Of a DNA stretch of 64,000 bases, positions 49,240 through 60,847 are shown one piece after another. Positions within the stretch are counted from its first letter, which is position 1; every line of letters begins with the position of its first letter. The translations under genes and the position numbers were made by a program. The DNA comes from SAR202 cluster bacterium bin22 (GTDB lineage Bacteria > Chloroflexota > Dehalococcoidia > Lucifugimonadales > UBA3495), in contig MPMM01000018.1 of NCBI GenBank assembly GCA_002238505.1, positions 1 through 64,000 of the forward strand, written 5' to 3'. A model generated the notes under the pieces. The model did not search any database. It saw only the letters and a list, made by a program, of their open reading frames with translations, and was not told the DNA's origin.

Positions 49240-50235
49240 TCATCGTCCCTCCCGGTAATACCTGGCCACCGCGCCCCGGTCAGCCGACTGGCGTTCCGTA
49301 TACCGGGCCGGCATCGTGGAACTCTTCCACCGGCCCGCCGTCATCAGCGCCGGCAATTCCACGCCGCTCTTCACCAGGTCCTGGGCCATGCCCACCCGAC
49401 CCGAGTGGCCGCTGAAGCCGTCGCCCAGGCCTGCAGCCCGGGTTGCCGCCTTCACCCGCCGGCCCAGCTGCCGCGGGGAAAGCCCAAACACCGGACCCTT
49501 CGGATCCAGCAGCTCCTCCGCCGGACGGATCGCCCACAGGGCTCCCGCAGCCTCCTGGCCGATGTAGAGCACCACGCCCTCGGCGCCGGGGTCCGTCTTC
49601 GACCGGCGCACCTGCAGGAGAGCGGACCCGTCCCCGCGGAACTCCAGGTCGCCCCAGATGAGCGCCGCTGCCTCCGACCGGCGCAACAGCCCATCCCTCA
49701 GGATCGACAGCAGTGCCACGTCCACCAGGGCCCGCCAGGACGCCCTCTCCGCCGATTCCTGGCCCTTCTCCCCCTGCCCCAGCTGGCGCCGGTGGCCGGC
49801 GGTGGCTTTCACCGCGGCCAGGGACTCGGCCGTTAAGGGCCTGGCCTGCTTCTGGGCCCTGCCGTGGGCCCGCGAGATCCCCTGCAGGATGCGCCGGACC
49901 CCCTCATTGTCGGTGGGGTCCTCGTGACCGGTCGCCTTATGCACAGCCGCCAGGGCGGCCCGGTGAAGACGCACGGTGGCCACGGAGACCTTTCGCTCCT
50001 CGGCCAGGTGGCTGAGGTAACCGGCCACCAGGGCCGGCGTCGCCGGCAGCGCCAGCACGGCGCGGGCCTGGGCCCACTTCTCGAAACTGCGCCACGCAGA
50101 GGAGTAGGCCGCCCGGGTGCCGGCCGACACGCTGCGGTCCAGGAGTTCCTGGAGGCGCCGGACATCCTCGGAGTTCAGGCCCTGATGGGCCGGGGCGGGA
50201 GCTGCCGAAACCGGGACCGGAAACATCGTCATCAC
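49240..50235 (-). CDS. Tyrosine recombinase/integrase
   Basis: LRDGLLRRSEAAALIWGDL; GHSGRVGMAQDLVKSGVELPALMTAGRWKSSTMPARYTERQ. Confidence 0.9.
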   Translation of the reverse strand: MMTMFPVPVSAAPAPAHQGLNSEDVRRLQELLDRSVSAGTRAAYSSAWRSFEKWAQARAVLALPATPALVAGYLSHLAEERKVSVATVRLHRAALAAVHKATGHEDPTDNEGVRRILQGISRAHGRAQKQARPLTAESLAAVKATAGHRRQLGQGEKGQESAERASWRALVDVALLSILRDGLLRRSEAAALIWGDLEFRGDGSALLQVRRSKTDPGAEGVVLYIGQEAAGALWAIRPAEELLDPKGPVFGLSPRQLGRRVKAATRAAGLGDGFSGHSGRVGMAQDLVKSGVELPALMTAGRWKSSTMPARYTERQSADRGAVARYYREGR

Positions 50236-51973: not shown

Positions 51974-52936
51974 ATGACCATTCAACCGTACGGAGAGACA
52001 TCCGGACCACCGGCGCCCGCCACCCTCACGGCCCAGGACCAGCGCCGGATCCAGGATGCCCTGGACAGCTCCACGTCGGCCAACACCCGCCGTGCCTACA
52101 ACCAGGCCTGGCTGCGCTTTGAGGCCTGGGCGAGGGAGCGTGGGGCCTCCCACCCTCTGCCGGCGTCGCCCGAGCTGGTGGCCGCGTTCCTGGCGGAGCT
52201 GGCCGAGGCGGGCAAGTCGGTGGCCACCCTCCGGCTCGCCAAGTCCGCCCTGGCGGAGGTCCACCGGTCGACCGGTAACCAGGACCCCACCGACAACGAG
52301 GGGGTGAGGAAGGTCATGGCCGGCATTGCCCGGGTCAACGGCCGTCCCCAGCGTCAGGCGAAGCCGCTAACCGAGACAGCCCTGGCCGCGGTGAAGGCCA
52401 CGGCCATGCAGCCCAGGAGACACCAGGGCAGGGCCGTCAGGGCGGAGAACGCCTGGGCTGCCCGACGTCGGGGCCAGGTGGACGTCGCCCTGCTGTCCGT
52501 TCTCCGGGATGGATTGCTCCGCAGGTCGGAGGCCTCGGAACTCCGGTGGGGCGACGTGGAGGTGCAGGAAGACGGCTCGGCACGGCTCCACGTGCGTCGG
52601 TCCAAGACGTACCCGGAGGCCGCGGCGGCTCTGGTGGCAATTATGCCGGAGGGGTTCGCGGTAGTGGACCCGTCAACGCCGGTGTTCGGGCTGTCGGCCA
52701 GCCAGATCGGCCGGAGGGTGAACGCCGCGGCGAAGGCCGCGGGCCTGGGCGAAGGGTTCACCGGCCACAGCGGCCGCGTGGGCATGGCCCAGGACCTGGC
52801 GGCCGCGGGGGTGGAGCTCCCGGCGCTGATGACCGCAGGCAGGTGGAAGAGCTCGAAAATGCCGGCACGGTACACCGAGGGCCAAGCTGCGGGCCGGGGC
52901 GCTGTGGCAAGGTATTACCAGGAAAGGAGGGGTTAA
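51974..52936 (+). CDS. Tyrosine recombinase/integrase, paralogue of 49240..50235
   Basis: LRDGLLRRSEASELRWGDVEV; GHSGRVGMAQDLAAAGVELPALMTAGRWKSSKMPARYTEGQ. Confidence 0.9.
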   Translation: MTIQPYGETSGPPAPATLTAQDQRRIQDALDSSTSANTRRAYNQAWLRFEAWARERGASHPLPASPELVAAFLAELAEAGKSVATLRLAKSALAEVHRSTGNQDPTDNEGVRKVMAGIARVNGRPQRQAKPLTETALAAVKATAMQPRRHQGRAVRAENAWAARRRGQVDVALLSVLRDGLLRRSEASELRWGDVEVQEDGSARLHVRRSKTYPEAAAALVAIMPEGFAVVDPSTPVFGLSASQIGRRVNAAAKAAGLGEGFTGHSGRVGMAQDLAAAGVELPALMTAGRWKSSKMPARYTEGQAAGRGAVARYYQERRG

Positions 52937-54000
52937 GCCCCGTCCCAGCATCCAATGCCAGGAATCCGCACGGCTTTGGTCGTCAGGAACGTAGATGCTA
53001 TTTGAGCGCCGTGCTGAGCCATCGCGCTGGCGGCCTCTCCTGGCAGGATCACCTTGGCTTTGCTCCAGTCATCAAGGTAGATCTTTCCACCAGACGGGGG
53101 GTCGAGCCGGGTAATTCTATCTCTTCCGATCAGCAGACCGGCTTGCCCCAAAGCGTTCATTGATTGGAAATGCATGGCGGCAAATATGATACTTGTCCAC
53201 GCGAGCTTTCCCCCTAACCACCTTTGCAACCGGTTAATGGTATAAGGGTCTTCGCCGCACCCTATGCTGAGGATAGAGATGTCGTTTCTATCAGTCGTGA
53301 AGCTGGACAAGGCTTCCACCAATCCGACCATGATCGGATTGTTAGCCCATACACCTCCATCGGCGAAGATATAGCCGTCCTCTACCGGCCTGAGATACGT
53401 TGAAGCAGCGGCCGTAGCAGCCGCTACCTTCGCCATGTCTTCGTCGCCGTCTTTCTTATAGTCAGGGTGGTGTGGGGTCTTGAAGACGTATACGTCGCCG
53501 TATTTCCAATCCAGTGAAGGGATGCAAAGGCGCACCTGCGCATCGCGCAGCTTGGCAGTCCCGAGAACCTCCTCCAGTATTTGGTCCAGGGCCTTCCGTC
53601 CATAGGCATGAAAAACATATTGACGGAGTTTTCGCAATGCTCTCCGTTCAGGCGGGAAGATTTCTCTCCCCCGAGTGATATATAAGTCCAGTAGTTCTCT
53701 GGCAGTCATGCCGGCTGCCAGTCCCAGGGCCAGGATTCCCCCGGTTGAGGTGCCGGTTATCAGATCGAAGTATTCGGCTACCGAATCACCGCCAAGGTAC
53801 GTGCTCTCCAGGTCAGCGAGTATTACCGCGGGAAAAATCCCCCTGATGCCACCTCCGTCCAGGGATAGAATGCGGAACGGCTGGTCCGACTCCCAGTCCA
53901 GCCGTTCGCGCCTCCGACGCAGGATACCGTCCGATCTCCTCGGTGGGTTGTTGGTTTCAGTCATCCGCTCCTCCGCGCCCCAGCGGTAGGTTGTATCCAT
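52933..54000 (-). CDS. Patatin-like phospholipase (CapV-type CBASS effector)
   Basis: ILSLDGGGIRGIFPAVILADLE; GTSTGGILALGLA; FADGGVWANNPIMVGLVEAL. Confidence 0.9.
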   Translation of the reverse strand: MDTTYRWGAEERMTETNNPPRRSDGILRRRRERLDWESDQPFRILSLDGGGIRGIFPAVILADLESTYLGGDSVAEYFDLITGTSTGGILALGLAAGMTARELLDLYITRGREIFPPERRALRKLRQYVFHAYGRKALDQILEEVLGTAKLRDAQVRLCIPSLDWKYGDVYVFKTPHHPDYKKDGDEDMAKVAAATAAASTYLRPVEDGYIFADGGVWANNPIMVGLVEALSSFTTDRNDISILSIGCGEDPYTINRLQRWLGGKLAWTSIIFAAMHFQSMNALGQAGLLIGRDRITRLDPPSGGKIYLDDWSKAKVILPGEAASAMAQHGAQIASTFLTTKAVRIPGIGCWDGA

Positions 54001-54054: not shown

Positions 54055-55785
54055 TTATTTCTGATAAGAAGTACCACTTGTGCCCTGCTCCACTTCCGCT
54101 AAGTGGCACCTCTTAAACTTTGCCCCACTGCCGCAGGGACAAGGCTGGTTCCGGCCGGTCTTCCGCATGCTCTGCAATTCTCCCAAGTACTGCCGGTAAG
54201 CCTCTCTGGGAGAGTGCGGATATTCTTTCCACAAATCGTCCTTTGCCGCTGCAAGCCCGAACCGGTCTACGTATGCCACCCGGTAGAAGAAGGGAACCAC
54301 TAATTCCCTGATGAATCTGACTATTTCAATTTTTGAACCTGTTGCTGCCTGGATTCCCAGGCAGCAACGGTTTTCGGAAAGACCCGGGTAACAGTGCATA
54401 TCAGCTATATCAGCTATTTGGCGCTGTTCCATGATCTGCTGTATCCGGCCACCGGTCTCGATGACCGGTGGCCAAGGGTTGAAGGCCGAGGGCTGGAAGT
54501 CCAGGCGGATTTCTATTTCAAAAGTGTCGTGGATGGCCTTGCTGTTTCCTGGTTCGGTTGGTTCCGGAAGGGGTGTTAGCCATCCGCTATCTTTGTCAAA
54601 CTCAGCGGAGAATTCCAGTGTTCCGATGATTCGACAGCCCTTGGCATCGTAGGACAGCCCGGGCTGTTCCAGCGTGATCCTCTGAACGTCTTCGTCCGAA
54701 AGGGTAATGGTTACAGGTTCCAGGACACGGGCCTCCGGTATCTGGGCGCCCGCGTATGGTCCCCTTGGGCGCACGGGTGCAGCAGCAGGGGCCGTCAGTA
54801 GCGGCCGATTACTCCCTTGGCCACCGGAAGGCCGGCCGGGTGAGTTCCCACTGCCCCCACCGTTGCCGCCACTATTGCCATTTCCGCCGCCAGATGACCC
54901 CTTTCCGAAGTCATCACCGAAGAGTTCTTGCCACAGTTTGATCGCCTTCTCGCTGGACGGTTCGTCCTTCGCCTTTCTCGCCGTTTGCGCGTAGGAATGC
55001 ACGCGGTCCCTGAAATTGGCATATTTCTGCTGGTCCCAGTGCCGATTGAAATCTTCCGTAGCCAGAACCGGATTCTTGACCTTCGGCATGTTGGGATGCT
55101 GCTGCAGGTAATTGTCCATGCGGGTGAGGACGGTAACCAGAGTATCAGCATTGGTGCTCACTGATCCCTCACCCTCATCTGACGCCTTAATGGTGTTGCC
55201 GATAAGGGTGGTCAGCAGGATCGACTTGGCGGTGAAGCTGTTCTTGTGGTCACGGAGGTATTTGAGCAACCTGATTACCCGCTTCAGGTTGCCGCCGGTG
55301 ATTCGATTCTTCTCGTTTATCCAGTCCCTGTACCCGACACCGTCAGTTTGCTCGAATTTGTTGTCATTCCGGTTGCAGACGTAATGCTTGCCCTTGATCG
55401 TCACCCGCGGGACCACGTCCAGATGAAAATCTCCGGCATAGTCAACCGTCACGCACCTGGTCTTCAGCCTTAGCTTGTCGGCGTACGTCTTGTTGGCCGC
55501 CAGGGTGCGCCTGACCTCGAGGACGTAGTCTTTGGGTTCCCACTCAGAGTTCGGGTTCATCACGATCTGGATGTCAGCATCGTACTCATCATTGTCATCC
55601 ACGGGCTTGATGAGAGTCCCGAAGGCGTAGGACCCCTGCGGTTCCATATTCTGGTAGCCTTTCAGGTGCTCCTTGAGATGGCCGTTCACACCCCTGACTC
55701 CGCTTCTTAGCCTGTCCAGCCTGGTATCGTTGAGGTTAACGTGGTCCCTGAGAAAGTCCTGGAATTCCTTGTTGTTCTTGGTCAT
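54055..55785 (-). CDS. CBASS CD-NTase fused via Gly-rich linker to an E2-like domain plus SEC-C zinc motif
   Basis: GSYAFGTLIKPVDDNDEYDADIQIVM and FHLDVVPRV; linker GKGSSGGGNGNSGGNGGGSGNSPG; FEIEIRLDFQPSAFNPWPPVIETGGRI...HCYPGLSENRCCLGI...; C-terminal RNQPCPCGSGAKFKRCH. Confidence 0.8.
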   Translation of the reverse strand: MTKNNKEFQDFLRDHVNLNDTRLDRLRSGVRGVNGHLKEHLKGYQNMEPQGSYAFGTLIKPVDDNDEYDADIQIVMNPNSEWEPKDYVLEVRRTLAANKTYADKLRLKTRCVTVDYAGDFHLDVVPRVTIKGKHYVCNRNDNKFEQTDGVGYRDWINEKNRITGGNLKRVIRLLKYLRDHKNSFTAKSILLTTLIGNTIKASDEGEGSVSTNADTLVTVLTRMDNYLQQHPNMPKVKNPVLATEDFNRHWDQQKYANFRDRVHSYAQTARKAKDEPSSEKAIKLWQELFGDDFGKGSSGGGNGNSGGNGGGSGNSPGRPSGGQGSNRPLLTAPAAAPVRPRGPYAGAQIPEARVLEPVTITLSDEDVQRITLEQPGLSYDAKGCRIIGTLEFSAEFDKDSGWLTPLPEPTEPGNSKAIHDTFEIEIRLDFQPSAFNPWPPVIETGGRIQQIMEQRQIADIADMHCYPGLSENRCCLGIQAATGSKIEIVRFIRELVVPFFYRVAYVDRFGLAAAKDDLWKEYPHSPREAYRQYLGELQSMRKTGRNQPCPCGSGAKFKRCHLAEVEQGTSGTSYQK

Positions 55786-55960: not shown

Positions 55961-56557
55961 ATGGTTCGTCTTGCAGAAATAGCTAATATCTCCCTGGGCC
56001 TGCCTAACTCCGGATGGCAGCTGGAAGCAGATTACCGGGGATACGCTGTGCGACTTGTGGAAAGCGGGAGCCTTGGGGATGCCTGTTGGTTGGGCATTGA
56101 CAACCTAAAGGAGGTCGTAGTTCCCAGTTACGAGGCCGCCGATCGATACCTGCTACGGCCCTACGATGTTTTGGTTACTGCTCGCGCCAGCACCGTTCAG
56201 GCTGCGTTGGTGTCGCCAGCAGTATCTCGGACGGTAGCCAGTGTGACTCTGTTGGTGGTGCGGGCCCACGATACCGGATCGGGCATGGAGCATTTCATTT
56301 GGTATTTCCTCACGTCGAGGTGGGGTCAGGCTCAGTTGAAGCGGCGAGTGACGGTCGGCGCGACCTTAACTACATTGTCGGCCGCTGGCCTCGGAGAAGT
56401 TGAGCTGCCTAACCCTTCCCGCGAAGTCCTGCAACGAGTCGCCTCGCTGGTTGAGGCGTCTGACAGCGCATATACCTGGACCCTGGAGGCCGCCCGTCTG
56501 CGGCGGGATACGCTCCGTGATTCGATAATTGGCACGTTGGATTCCACATCACGCTAA
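55961..56557 (+). CDS. HsdS-like single target-recognition-domain (half-S) protein
   Basis: RYLLRPYDVLVTARASTVQAALVS...LKRRVTVGATLTTLSAAGLGEVELPNPSREVLQRVASLVEA. Confidence 0.7.
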   Translation: MVRLAEIANISLGLPNSGWQLEADYRGYAVRLVESGSLGDACWLGIDNLKEVVVPSYEAADRYLLRPYDVLVTARASTVQAALVSPAVSRTVASVTLLVVRAHDTGSGMEHFIWYFLTSRWGQAQLKRRVTVGATLTTLSAAGLGEVELPNPSREVLQRVASLVEASDSAYTWTLEAARLRRDTLRDSIIGTLDSTSR

Positions 56558-56572
56558 TCGCCAGGAGGAACC

Positions 56573-58102
56573 ATGGTGCTCACTACTCAAGAATTGCAGA
56601 CGAAGCTGTGGCAGGCAGCGGATATTCTGCGCGGCCAGATCGACTCAGCGGATTACAAGAATTACATCTTTGCGGTATTGTTCCTCAAGCGGTTATCAGA
56701 CCGTTTCGCCGAAGAGGTCCAGTTGTCGGTGCAAGCCGGAGTGCCCCTGGATGTGGCTATATCAGACATGGATGAGCACCAATTCGCCGTACCCGAAGCT
56801 GCCCAATGGAGCAAGATTTGCGATACCACCATGAACTTGGGCGAGGCGCTAAACGTAGCCAGCAATGCCATTGAGGAAGCAAACGCAGGGAGGTTAGACG
56901 GCATTCTCGCCGCCACCAACTGGAACGATGAAAACAAACTCGGCAGCCCGTCAAACCGGGAAGGTATCATCCGCCGGCTACTCAACCACTTTAGCGACCT
57001 GGATCTCAGCGACGAGAACCTTCGTACCGATACGGGCAGTACTGGCAATGTGCTGGGGGACGCCTACGAGTATCTCATCTATCAGTTTGCCGACGATGCC
57101 GGCAAGCGAGGGGGGGAATTCTATACACCCCGGTCCGTGGTACGCCTCATTGTGGAATTGCTTCAGCCGCAGGAGGGTATGCGGATCTGCGACCCCACTT
57201 TTGGCTCGGCCGGGATGCTCATCTTCACCGCCGATTACGTCAGAGAGAAGGGAGGGAACCCTCAGAACCTGGTGCTCCACGGCCAGGAACGCAACCTCGG
57301 CACCCTGGCTATTGGCAAGCTTAATATGCTTCTCCACGGGCTGCCGGCAGCCCGTCTAGAGGCAGGGGACGTTATAGCAGAGCCAGGGCTGATGGACGAT
57401 GCCGGCCGTCTTTTTTCATATGACCGGGTCATCGCCAATCCGCCGTTCAGTCTCAGCAATTGGGGGTCTGATTTTGCTCCCACCGACCCCCACCACCGCT
57501 TTGATGGGTTCGGGGCTATACCCCCCAGAACCCGCGGAGACTTGGCCTTCCTCTTGCACATGCTCAAGGTAACCAATGCCCAGGGCATGGTTGGAGTCGT
57601 GATGCCCCACGGCATCCTCTTCCGGGGGGGCAGCGAGGGCAAAATACGCCAGCGCATTGTGGAGAACGACCTTTTTGAGGCAATCATTGGTCTGGCGCCT
57701 AATCTCTTTTTTGGAGCCAGCATTCCGGTGGCCATCTGCATCCTGAACAGGGCCAAACCTACTGACCGCAAGGGCAAGGTCATCTTCGTGGATGCTGCCC
57801 AGGAAGGCTATTTCCGATCAGGCACAGCCCAGAACTACATGGACCCTGAGCATATTGAGAAGGTCGTGCGGGCCTACCAGGCTTATGAGGACATAGACCG
57901 GTTCGCTCACGTGGCAGACCTGGAAGAAATCAGAAGCAATGGCTTCAACCTGAACATCAGCCGCTACGTGGACACTACCGTCCCGATAGAGGTGATGCCA
58001 GTGGAGGAGGCCTTGGCCCAACTGCGTGAAGCGGAACGGCAGAGGGATGAAGCGGTTGCCAGAATGGACGAACTCCTGGCCGGAATGGGTTATGCCCGGT
58101 AG
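56573..58102 (+). CDS. hsdM: Type I R-M HsdM N6-adenine methyltransferase
   Basis: LGDAYEYLIYQFADDAGKRGGEFYTPRSVVRLIVELL; CDPTFGSAGML; VIANPPFSLSNWG. Confidence 0.95.
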   Translation: MVLTTQELQTKLWQAADILRGQIDSADYKNYIFAVLFLKRLSDRFAEEVQLSVQAGVPLDVAISDMDEHQFAVPEAAQWSKICDTTMNLGEALNVASNAIEEANAGRLDGILAATNWNDENKLGSPSNREGIIRRLLNHFSDLDLSDENLRTDTGSTGNVLGDAYEYLIYQFADDAGKRGGEFYTPRSVVRLIVELLQPQEGMRICDPTFGSAGMLIFTADYVREKGGNPQNLVLHGQERNLGTLAIGKLNMLLHGLPAARLEAGDVIAEPGLMDDAGRLFSYDRVIANPPFSLSNWGSDFAPTDPHHRFDGFGAIPPRTRGDLAFLLHMLKVTNAQGMVGVVMPHGILFRGGSEGKIRQRIVENDLFEAIIGLAPNLFFGASIPVAICILNRAKPTDRKGKVIFVDAAQEGYFRSGTAQNYMDPEHIEKVVRAYQAYEDIDRFAHVADLEEIRSNGFNLNISRYVDTTVPIEVMPVEEALAQLREAERQRDEAVARMDELLAGMGYAR

Positions 58103-58117
58103 GATGATGGTTGAGCA

Positions 58118-58354
58118 ATGCCTGTTCTATTGAGACAGGGCCCCTACCGCTTTTTCTTCTATTCGGCTGACTGGGTGGAACCTCCCCACGTGCACGTGCA
58201 GAGAGACCGGCAGACCGCCAAGTTCTGGCTGGATCCGATATCGCTGGCGAGCAGCGGAGGCATGAGGAGTACCGAAGTGCGCCGGGTTCAGCGTATGGTA
58301 GAGGAGAACCAGGCTTCATTTTTGAGGGAATGGAATGCACATTTCAGCAACTGA
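58118..58354 (+). CDS. DUF4160-family protein
   Basis: GPYRFFFYSADWVEPPHVHVQRDRQTAKFWLDP. Confidence 0.8.
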   Translation: MPVLLRQGPYRFFFYSADWVEPPHVHVQRDRQTAKFWLDPISLASSGGMRSTEVRRVQRMVEENQASFLREWNAHFSN

Positions 58355-58685
58355 AATTATCGTCCCTGACGCGATAACCATTGAAGTAACGGAAGACACG
58401 CTTACCGCCGACCTTTCCGATGGCCGGACTATCTCGGTCCCGCTGGCCTGGTATCCCCGCTTGGTACACGCCACGCCCGGCGAACGCAACAACTGGGAGC
58501 TGATTGGGACCGGCCAGGGCATCCATTGGCCCGACCTAGATGAAGACCTCAGTATTGAGGGGTTTCTTGCCGGCAGAAAGTCGGGCGAGAGTCCACGTGC
58601 TTTCAAGCGATGGCTGGAGGCCAAGCAGACTGGCCTCCCTGTGAACATCTACGAAATTCAGCCTGACGCCCCTGAAGAAGTCTAA
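58335..58685 (+). CDS. DUF2442-family protein
   Basis: VTEDTLTADLSDGRTISVPLAWYPRLVHATPGERNNWELIGTGQGIHWPDLDEDLSIEGFLAGR. Confidence 0.8.
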   Translation: MHISATEIIVPDAITIEVTEDTLTADLSDGRTISVPLAWYPRLVHATPGERNNWELIGTGQGIHWPDLDEDLSIEGFLAGRKSGESPRAFKRWLEAKQTGLPVNIYEIQPDAPEEV

Positions 58686-59562
58686 TGAGACCCTCCAGTG
58701 GACAGGGCACTATAGCCAAAGGTTGGCGGCGGGTACGCTTGGGGGACGTGGCGGAGGTCGAGACTGGTGGTACTCCCAGCCGGAGTCGCCCAGAATATTG
58801 GGAAGGCGGGATTCCCTGGATGGCTTCGGGGCAGATAAATCAACGCCGAGTTATGACGACGGAAGAGACTATCACGCAGGAAGGGCTGAAAAACTCAAAT
58901 GCAAAGCTTTTTCCTCCAGATACGGTGATGGTCGCCATGAACGGCCAAGGAGCTACAAGAGGCAAAGCTTGTGTGCTTGGAATCGAGGCCTCATGTAACG
59001 AGTCATTGGCTGCAATCTCTGCGAGGCGGGACAGTGTAAACAGGTTCATATTCCACGTTCTCGATTCGGCCTATGATGTGCTTCGCAGCCTAACTGGCGA
59101 TGGTCGTGCAGGTCTTAATTTGGGTTTGATTCGGGGATTCAGTTTCCTCCTCCCGCCACTGCCCGAACAGCGGGCCATCGCCGCCGCCCTGGACTCCATT
59201 GATGACGCCATCGAGCGTACCGAGGCGGTCATCGCCGCCACCGAACAACTGCGCAACTCTTTGCTCCACCAACTACTCACCTACGGTGTCCTTGGCTGGC
59301 ACACCGAATGGAAAGACGTCCCTGGGTTGGGGACGACACCAAGGGACTGGGATGTAGTTAGGCTGGGAGAAGTAACAGAAATTAAGTGGCTGATTTCAGG
59401 TTGCCTGTGCCTTCTCTTCCCGAACAGCAGGTCATATCAGGGCTCCTAGACAGCGTGGACGCCAGTATTACCGAAGCTAGAAAAGAGAGACAAGGTTTGC
59501 GATATCTGAAGGATTCTGCTGCAGACTCGTTACTGACAGGGCGAAAGCGTATACCTGCTTAG
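58685..59562 (+). pseudogene. hsdS: HsdS specificity subunit with second TRD largely deleted/frameshifted
   Basis: First TRD GDVAEVETGGTPSRSRPEYWEGGIPWMASGQI, LLPPLPEQRAIAAALDSIDDAI; second half breaks at VVRLGEVTEIK, then LPVPSLPEQQVISGLLDSVDASI...DSLLTGRKRIPA in another frame. Confidence 0.75.
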
Positions 59563-59593: not shown

Positions 59594-60847
59594 ATGGCTT
59601 ATTACCACATCCGAATAACACCTAACTCAAACCGGTCACAAGATGAGGTGAGGCTAGGCCTTTCACTGGAAGCGCTAATGAATCGCTTCGTGGTCCCTTA
59701 TAGAAAAGGTCTACCATTGGTAATTTCAGGAAGAGCAATACCCTCCACAGACATCGGTCGGGTCCTGATAAGCAAGAGTGAGGAGGAGGCGAGATACCTA
59801 ATAGAAGTCCTAAAGGCCGAAGATCGTTCCAGTCCGGTAGCATTTATAGGTGGACCATCATTAGACTGGCGCGCTGCCGACAGAGCTGAAGACGTTACTG
59901 ATGAGTTCATCACGGGGCCTCCGGGGAGTGAGCCTGACCGGAATGAAACGACATTTTCGGAGCCAAGACCTTCGGAAGAATCACGAGACGTCTTTGTTGT
60001 TCACGGACGTAATTTGCTAGCTCGCGACGCAGTTTTTGACTTTCTTAGGGCCATAGACTTACATCCTATAGAGTGGTCGGAAGCAGTTAATGCAACAGGC
60101 AAGGGGTCGCCCTATATCGGGGAAATACTGGACGCAGCGTTCTCCAGAGCTCACGCAATTGTGGTTGTATTTAGCCCCGATGATGAAGCCAGGCTTAAGC
60201 AACAGTTCAGAACGGACAGTGATCCAGATTACGAGAGACGGCTAACGGGACAAGCGCGTCCCAATGTTTTGTTTGAAGCTGGCATGGCCATGGGTAGATC
60301 CCCAGAAAGGACAGTATTGGTGGAAGTCGGATCTCTTCGACGATTCACCGACACTGAAGGGATTCACGCGATTCGCATGAATGGCTCTCCCGAAAGAAGA
60401 CAGGACATGGCTCAACGGCTGAAGACTGCTGGATGTCCAGTGAATTTGGAAGGCAGCAATTGGCTTTCTGCCGGAGAATTTGACTCAGCGATTCGCCTGG
60501 CAGAACAGCATTCGGCCGGCGCGGAAGACGCTCCAGAAAACTCGGTTCATAGTTCTCTCTACCTCCAACTTTCTCAAGACCACATAGACCTCCTTTTGGA
60601 GGCTGCCAAAGATAGGAGCGGCACAATACTCAGAACTATTACAACGGAAGGTCAGTTTGTCCAAACTAACGAAAGAAGATTTGGAGAGCCTGGCAACCAT
60701 AGGCTGGAAACAAAGTGGCAGGGTGTTCTAGATGATTTGTGCAACCAACGGTTGCTGAAGAAAGAAAACTTCCAAGGTGTAGAGGTATATGAAGTGACCA
60801 GTGCCGGGTATGAAGCGGTGGCAATTTTGGAGCAACAAACTGACTAA
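59594..60847 (+). CDS. TIR-like (PF10137/CAP12-type predicted nucleotide-binding) protein
   Basis: DVFVVHGRNLLARDAVFDFLRAIDLHPIEWSEAV...SPYIGEILDAAFSRAHAIVVVFSPDDEARLK...ARPNVLFEAGMAMGRSPERTVLVEVG. Confidence 0.8.
   Translation: MAYYHIRITPNSNRSQDEVRLGLSLEALMNRFVVPYRKGLPLVISGRAIPSTDIGRVLISKSEEEARYLIEVLKAEDRSSPVAFIGGPSLDWRAADRAEDVTDEFITGPPGSEPDRNETTFSEPRPSEESRDVFVVHGRNLLARDAVFDFLRAIDLHPIEWSEAVNATGKGSPYIGEILDAAFSRAHAIVVVFSPDDEARLKQQFRTDSDPDYERRLTGQARPNVLFEAGMAMGRSPERTVLVEVGSLRRFTDTEGIHAIRMNGSPERRQDMAQRLKTAGCPVNLEGSNWLSAGEFDSAIRLAEQHSAGAEDAPENSVHSSLYLQLSQDHIDLLLEAAKDRSGTILRTITTEGQFVQTNERRFGEPGNHRLETKWQGVLDDLCNQRLLKKENFQGVEVYEVTSAGYEAVAILEQQTD

Follow-up and report, generated by a model that had tools for sequence, protein, structure and literature searches.

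In CBASS (cyclic-oligonucleotide-based antiphage signaling systems), the ubiquitin-conjugating-type enzyme that modifies the cyclase is normally a separate protein. In systems with Cap2 and Cap3, the conjugated residue is a C-terminal Gly or Ala (Jenson 2023, PMC10097602). In the E2-only system of Yan et al. 2024, the residue given for cGASylation in a review is Y405 (PMC12135389). The SmCdnG chain in the PDB has 407 residues, which would fit an aromatic donor followed by two more residues. Conjugation by a ubiquitin-conjugating enzyme (E2) without an activating enzyme (E1) is a chemical puzzle of E2-only CBASS. Here we analyze a stretch of 64,000 nucleotides from SAR202 cluster bacterium bin22 (contig MPMM01000018.1, positions 1 to 64,000; hereafter the window), in which one gene joins a cGAS/DncV-like nucleotidyltransferase (CD-NTase), an E2 domain and a SEC-C motif. 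This natural fusion carries the substrate tail at its junction and thus makes E1-free conjugation directly testable in one protein. No published description of a cyclase-E2 fusion was found in the literature that we searched.

The original prediction, made from the sequence alone, described a single open reading frame encoding a CBASS cyclase fused in cis to an E2-like domain and a SEC-C motif, with a patatin effector. The frame is indeed single and uninterrupted, but the prediction missed the strand: the gene lies on the minus strand, a ribosome-binding-like GAAGGGGG stands directly 5' of its ATG, and the plus strand of the same segment is full of stops. Residues 1-297 match PADLOC PDLC00793 (E=2.4e-114) and Pfam SMODS (2.5e-31), with DncV-like matches as well. 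The catalytic motifs GSYAFGT, EYDAD and HLDVV, which supply the GS, the DxD and the third Asp, are intact, and these matches place the segment among CD-NTases of the DncV/SMODS kind. The expected Gly/Ser-rich linker is present at about residues 298-335, and residues 298-332 have a predicted local distance difference test score (pLDDT) below 50 in the full-length model. The SEC-C segment at the end fits the zinc motif CxCx(8)CH, and the patatin gene follows 54 bp downstream on the same strand. Thus, the proposed cis architecture is borne out by domain matches and by fused relatives. No Cap2 homolog was found in the window, and neither an E1 nor an isopeptidase is present at the locus of the fused gene. 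The prediction did not include the tail motif kept inside the chain, nor the relatives in which cyclase and E2 are split or in which this cyclase core goes with Cap2.

The tail at the junction is the feature that links the fusion to its split relatives. All split E2-only cyclases examined have the C-terminus [K/R/S][PQ][YWF]-x(2-4)-stop after a variable linker. Those in split operons end in VTPRKPYAR, VTPIKPYAK, VAPWRQYAR, VTPRKPWAR or VTPKKPFGR, and E2-only cyclases from other phyla end in NPPKPWGDTY, IAKPWKNI, DPKPWFKQ, TPTKPWRN, TVKPWCRS or KISPWSR, with Lys-Pro invariant in a six-sequence alignment of the latter. The corresponding motif V.P[RS].[PQ][YW][AG] is kept at the junction of all eight fused or fused-remnant proteins, between two unconserved segments: VRPRGPYAG in the window and VRPRKPYAS, VRPRPQYAG, VKPSKPYAT, VKPSKPWAT, VQPRKQYGS and VTPSRPYAD elsewhere. 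When the junctions were shuffled, the motif was recovered in at most 0.035% of draws. In the fusion, the predicted processing bond is most likely Tyr344-Ala345.

Within the core family of the window cyclase, members without an E2 but with an immediately downstream Cap2 gene end in RRFG, HRFG, QGFG, GGIG or GGFG, and the cyclase of a separate type II-long CBASS in the source genome (contig C12; cyclase, E1-E2, JAB) ends in RGGRFG. The coupling extends to another substrate family. A metallo-β-lactamase (MBL)-fold protein encoded before a gammaproteobacterial E2-only gene (L044:4814-6909, VYDD01000156.1) ends in VRPRKPYAR, and its 48%-identical homolog in the source genome, which lies beside an E2-E1-JAB protein (contig C7, L076:2222-5595), ends in ERAG. 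The MBL tail differs with the neighboring enzyme, and therefore the tail follows the enzyme and not the substrate family. The gammaproteobacterial locus is possibly a counterpart, with an E2 only, of the MBL operons of Iyer 2006. Together these ends form a tail code: FG before the stop with Cap2, KP[YWF]xx before the stop with an E2 only, and an internal PYA in the fusions, with the same rule on MBL proteins. The E2-only part of this code may already be described by Yan et al. 2024. The code predicts conjugation substrates from C-termini alone, and together with the retained substrate tail it raises the fusion above a domain-shuffling curiosity. Separately, one Cap2-type cyclase (L006:1501-2492, in G028) has an in-frame TAG just before its tail and an adjoining Cap2 that is still readable; the tail was lost through a nonsense mutation.

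Several lines of evidence bear on the identity of the E2-like domain. Residues 364-567 match the PADLOC E2 profile PDLC00872 at 2.3e-19, or at 1.6e-12 if the query is cut before the SEC-C motif. In a profile (HH) comparison, the E2s of the window clade matched a plasmid E2 family from several phyla (probability 99.2, E=5.9e-20). These related E2s are encoded in E2-only operons on plasmids of Cytobacillus, Aliarcobacter, Vibrio, Ligilactobacillus, Haliscomenobacter and others, and most carry a SEC-C-like cysteine cluster. A distant Vibrio E2 alone, compared with the whole PDB, matched three sequences, all ubiquitin-conjugating enzymes (best E=0.019), and the joint profile A7 matched 2h2y (2.5e-4) and 2fo3 (8.5e-4), with other E2s more weakly. 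In the latter alignment the CL of the E2 active site falls on the second Cys of CCLG. As to whether the Cys of NRCCLGI is conserved, which had been named as a check, both cysteines are kept in every member of the close family, and the only invariant columns in the broad E2 alignment are His464, Cys475, Leu476 and one later His. Because Cys475 is invariant and occupies the column of the lone Cys in distant E2s and of the active-site Cys in eukaryotic E2s, we predict that it, and not Cys474, is the nucleophile. The HH comparison of this family with the E2 domain of Cap2 was not significant (E 0.04-0.7), and the best alignment paired the H and C columns. An AlphaFold2 model of the domain, built from 17 sequences and with a mean pLDDT of 70, shows a helix, four strands, a loop with the His and the Cys, and three helices, which is the UBC order of elements; a non-UBC fold, named with the original prediction as a refutation, was not observed. 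Identity with the ubiquitin-conjugating (UBC) family is thus supported by sequence profiles, not by structure.

The fused architecture is rare but recurrent, and other Chloroflexota genomes carry it. Among the 99 relatives examined, full-length fused homologs occur in G054 (67% identity) and G079 (64%). When GTDB genomes were scanned with the E2 profile, 21 loci emerged, all in metagenome-assembled genomes, from Chloroflexota, Latescibacterota, Poribacteria and one gammaproteobacterium. The fused proteins are those of the window, L027 (G054), L028 (G526), L026 (G079), L033 and L018 (G055), with two further copies broken by insertion elements in G034 and one remnant in L042; intact fused frames are present in five genomes besides that of the window. 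Most of the remaining loci carry separate cyclase and E2 genes side by side, and these often share 4-13 bp. An order-level scan gave matches in 12 of 250 genomes, one of them a weak fragment, and a phylum-level scan of 399 genomes matched only the genome of the window and one other. No relatives were found in viral contigs or phage records. An assembly artifact is ruled out, since the fusion is present in other assemblies, including the 3.18-Mb contig OY282441.1, which is titled a chromosome. Both broken genes of G034 (OX638345.1; L037 and L039) are disrupted at an identical site by a 1712-bp insertion element that encodes a 464-aa transposase, and the two copies are in opposite orientations. 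At L027, a remnant of another cyclase N-terminus (L027:4805-4960) lies directly before the intact fused gene.

The fusions do not share one cyclase history. Up to about residue 294, the DNA of the G034 fusion cyclase is 92-97% identical to that of L021, a Cap2-type cyclase, and beyond that point the two are unrelated: L021 continues with a Gly-rich tail ending in IG and with Cap2, whereas G034 continues with the junction QPRKQYGS and the E2. Likewise, DNA similarity between the window and the Cap2-type L020 stops at about residue 295, the same place. The window-family cyclase core shares up to 78% identity with its Cap2-type neighbors, and in the tree the window cyclase shares a starred node with L020 and L006. 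The clean evidence for a swap is the G034/G030 pair. For the window, the tree suggests a Cap2-type locus as the source of the cyclase core, but a grouping of the four fused cyclases of the window lineage (lineage A) as a single clade was not rejected (p=0.31). A tree with every fused cyclase in one clade was rejected (p=0.0015), and one with every fused E2 domain in one clade was not (p=0.18). The trees thus place the fusions on at least two cyclase lineages. Since the fused cyclases are not one clade and the E2s are compatible with one, there were either at least two joinings or a tail-E2 cassette that moved between cores. These comparisons suggest that tail and enzyme move together as an exchangeable cassette.

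On balance, we lean toward the hypothesis that the fused gene and the patatin gene represent a cis, single-chain form of type II-short (E2-only) CBASS that acts by attack on its own tail. Cys475, aided by His464, would attack a peptide bond of the embedded tail, most likely after Tyr344, either in its own chain or in that of a neighbor. A cyclase-thioester would thereby form without E1 or ATP, with the energy of the peptide bond stored and the cyclase freed from its E2. The cyclase would then be passed to a lysine, which would switch on cyclic-nucleotide synthesis, and the nucleotide would activate the patatin lipase, leading to damage to the membrane of the infected cell. In E2-only cyclases the E2 may similarly remove the last residues and keep the aromatic as acyl donor, as we infer from the conserved aromatic that sits 2-4 residues before the stop. 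The narrower proposal, that the E2 cleaves its own chain at the embedded tail in an intein- or sortase-like conjugation route that switches on the cyclase, is offered tentatively, and we would not call it probable.

Several observations weigh against this hypothesis. The fusion junction lacks the free C-terminus of the split cyclases, and cleavage of the tail is an assumption. A Pfam search with the single E2-domain sequence matched no family. The HPN motif keeps its His and lacks its Asn. Within the E2 core, the AlphaFold2 model is poorest at the active-site loop, and a Foldseek search of this weak model against the PDB returned no match at a useful score, a result that, with such a model, speaks neither for nor against a UBC fold. 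The two copies in G034 are broken and G609 is decayed, and the architecture is therefore not always maintained; L027 has no recognizable effector beside its fused gene. Finally, the E1-free chemistry rests on what Yan et al. 2024 reportedly found for the E2-only system.

The main rival is a non-catalytic, permanent tether, in which the tail survives purely as a docking peptide: the E2 would hold it non-covalently, and the cyclase would be kept oligomeric or inhibited with neither cleavage nor conjugation. The missing free C-terminus and the missing E1 agree with such a tether, and residues about 331-340 score above the linker in the full-length model (block mean 61 vs 29-33), as if docked, although this higher confidence, at about 333-343, is a hint only. 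However, the invariant Cys475 and His464 would be needless in a pure tether, and the tail aromatic is also conserved in systems whose tail is free, with the stop 2-4 residues beyond it; we consider the tether unlikely. It is also conceivable that the E2s act in trans on the tails of neighboring chains and build head-to-tail or branched cyclase polymers, the fusion serving to fix a 1:1 stoichiometry. The two variable segments that flank the tail would give the freedom needed for trans reactions, but no result here tells cis from trans, and we regard such a chain builder as rather improbable.

Ordinary Cap2 chemistry, with the E2 receiving the cyclase from an E1 encoded elsewhere, would draw on the E1-domain proteins that the genome does encode, on contigs C12, C7 and C16. 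Those on C12 and C7, however, adjoin their own substrates (a cyclase ending in FG and an MBL protein ending in AG), the fused tail is internal and cannot be adenylated before cleavage, and related E2-only loci have no Cap2 homolog, which together leave this explanation with little probability. Least credible of all is a decaying or non-functional fusion created by loss of the stop codon between overlapping cyclase and E2 genes. The short overlaps of the split relatives mean that one mutation could fuse the genes, and some fused loci are broken, but the intact frames in the other genomes, the conservation of active-site and tail residues between variable linkers and the occurrence on two cyclase lineages, with a one-clade tree rejected, all speak against it.

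Table 1. Features of the fused gene and its operon partner (window coordinates)
Feature	Position	Strand	Basis
Fused CD-NTase/E2/SEC-C protein	54055..55785	-	576 aa, ATG at 55785, uninterrupted open reading frame
CD-NTase core, residues 1-297	54895..55785	-	SMODS and PADLOC cyclase matches
Gly/Ser/Pro-rich linker, residues 298-337	54775..54894	-	Sequence and model disorder
Embedded cyclase tail VRPRGPYAG, residues 338-346	54748..54774	-	Motif common to split-cyclase ends
E2 (UBC-family) domain, residues about 358-541	54163..54714	-	PDLC00872 and PDB E2 profile match
Conserved His464 (DMH; position of the E2 HPN histidine)	54394..54396	-	Invariant in alignments A2, A3 and A7
Predicted catalytic Cys475 (second C of NRCCLGI)	54361..54363	-	Invariant; aligned to eukaryotic E2 Cys
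SEC-C zinc-binding motif, residues 545-562	54100..54153	-	Pfam PF02810, 1.2e-9
Patatin-like phospholipase effector (CapV-type)	52933..54000	-	NF041079 CBASS_lipase 1.5e-70; Patatin 1.6e-22

For the patatin gene (Table 1), an ATG at 53964, which follows a GGAG, is the likelier start. Two similar tyrosine-recombinase-like proteins are encoded near the operon in opposite orientation (49240-50235, minus; 51974-52936, plus), and the latter gene shares 4 bp with the end of the patatin gene, which lies on the opposite strand. This pair suggests a mobile defense island. On the other side are pieces of a Type I restriction-modification system (55961-59449, plus), comprising an HsdS-like half (198 aa), HsdM (509 aa), a DUF2442 protein and a second HsdS-like open reading frame (254 aa), and the same island encodes a 417-aa protein with a CAP12/Pycsar-type TIR domain (59594-60847, plus; PF10137, 2.7e-27; PADLOC PDC-S35). 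Elsewhere in the source genome, on C12, a 491-aa open reading frame (L019:3584-5059) joins a HicB-like N-terminus to a window-family cyclase with no recognizable end tail; the type II-long CBASS with the RGGRFG cyclase, E1-E2, JAB and a TIR-like gene lies 2-6 kb away.

Among known systems, type II-short CBASS, as in the CdnG/E2 system of Serratia marcescens (Yan et al. 2024, doi 10.1038/s41564-024-01684-z), offers the closest comparison: it shares the CD-NTase, an E2 without an E1, an effector, a conserved aromatic-containing cyclase tail and the conserved E2 Cys. The differences are that cyclase and E2 here form one chain and that the tail lies inside this chain rather than at a free C-terminus. 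The fused protein is therefore a cis variant of type II-short CBASS and not a standard member, and its architecture suggests a single-chain, ATP-independent, self-processing immune switch. With type II-long CBASS (Cap2 E1-E2, Cap3; Jenson 2023, PMC10097602; Ledvina 2023) it shares a related cyclase core and the patatin effector, but it has no E1 (ThiF-like) domain, no Cap3, and a PYA-type tail in place of a C-terminal Gly or Ala. Its effector belongs to the family of patatin CBASS (CapV, NF041079) and likewise adjoins the cyclase in the operon, although here the cyclase-E2 gene precedes the patatin gene whereas most relatives have patatin first. Finally, the E2-E1-JAB + MBL operons (Iyer 2006, PMC1779556, row 6a) also place a prokaryotic E2 beside a dedicated partner; they differ in having MBL instead of a cyclase and in the presence of E1 and JAB, yet the MBL tail obeys the same enzyme-dependent rule as the fused cyclase.
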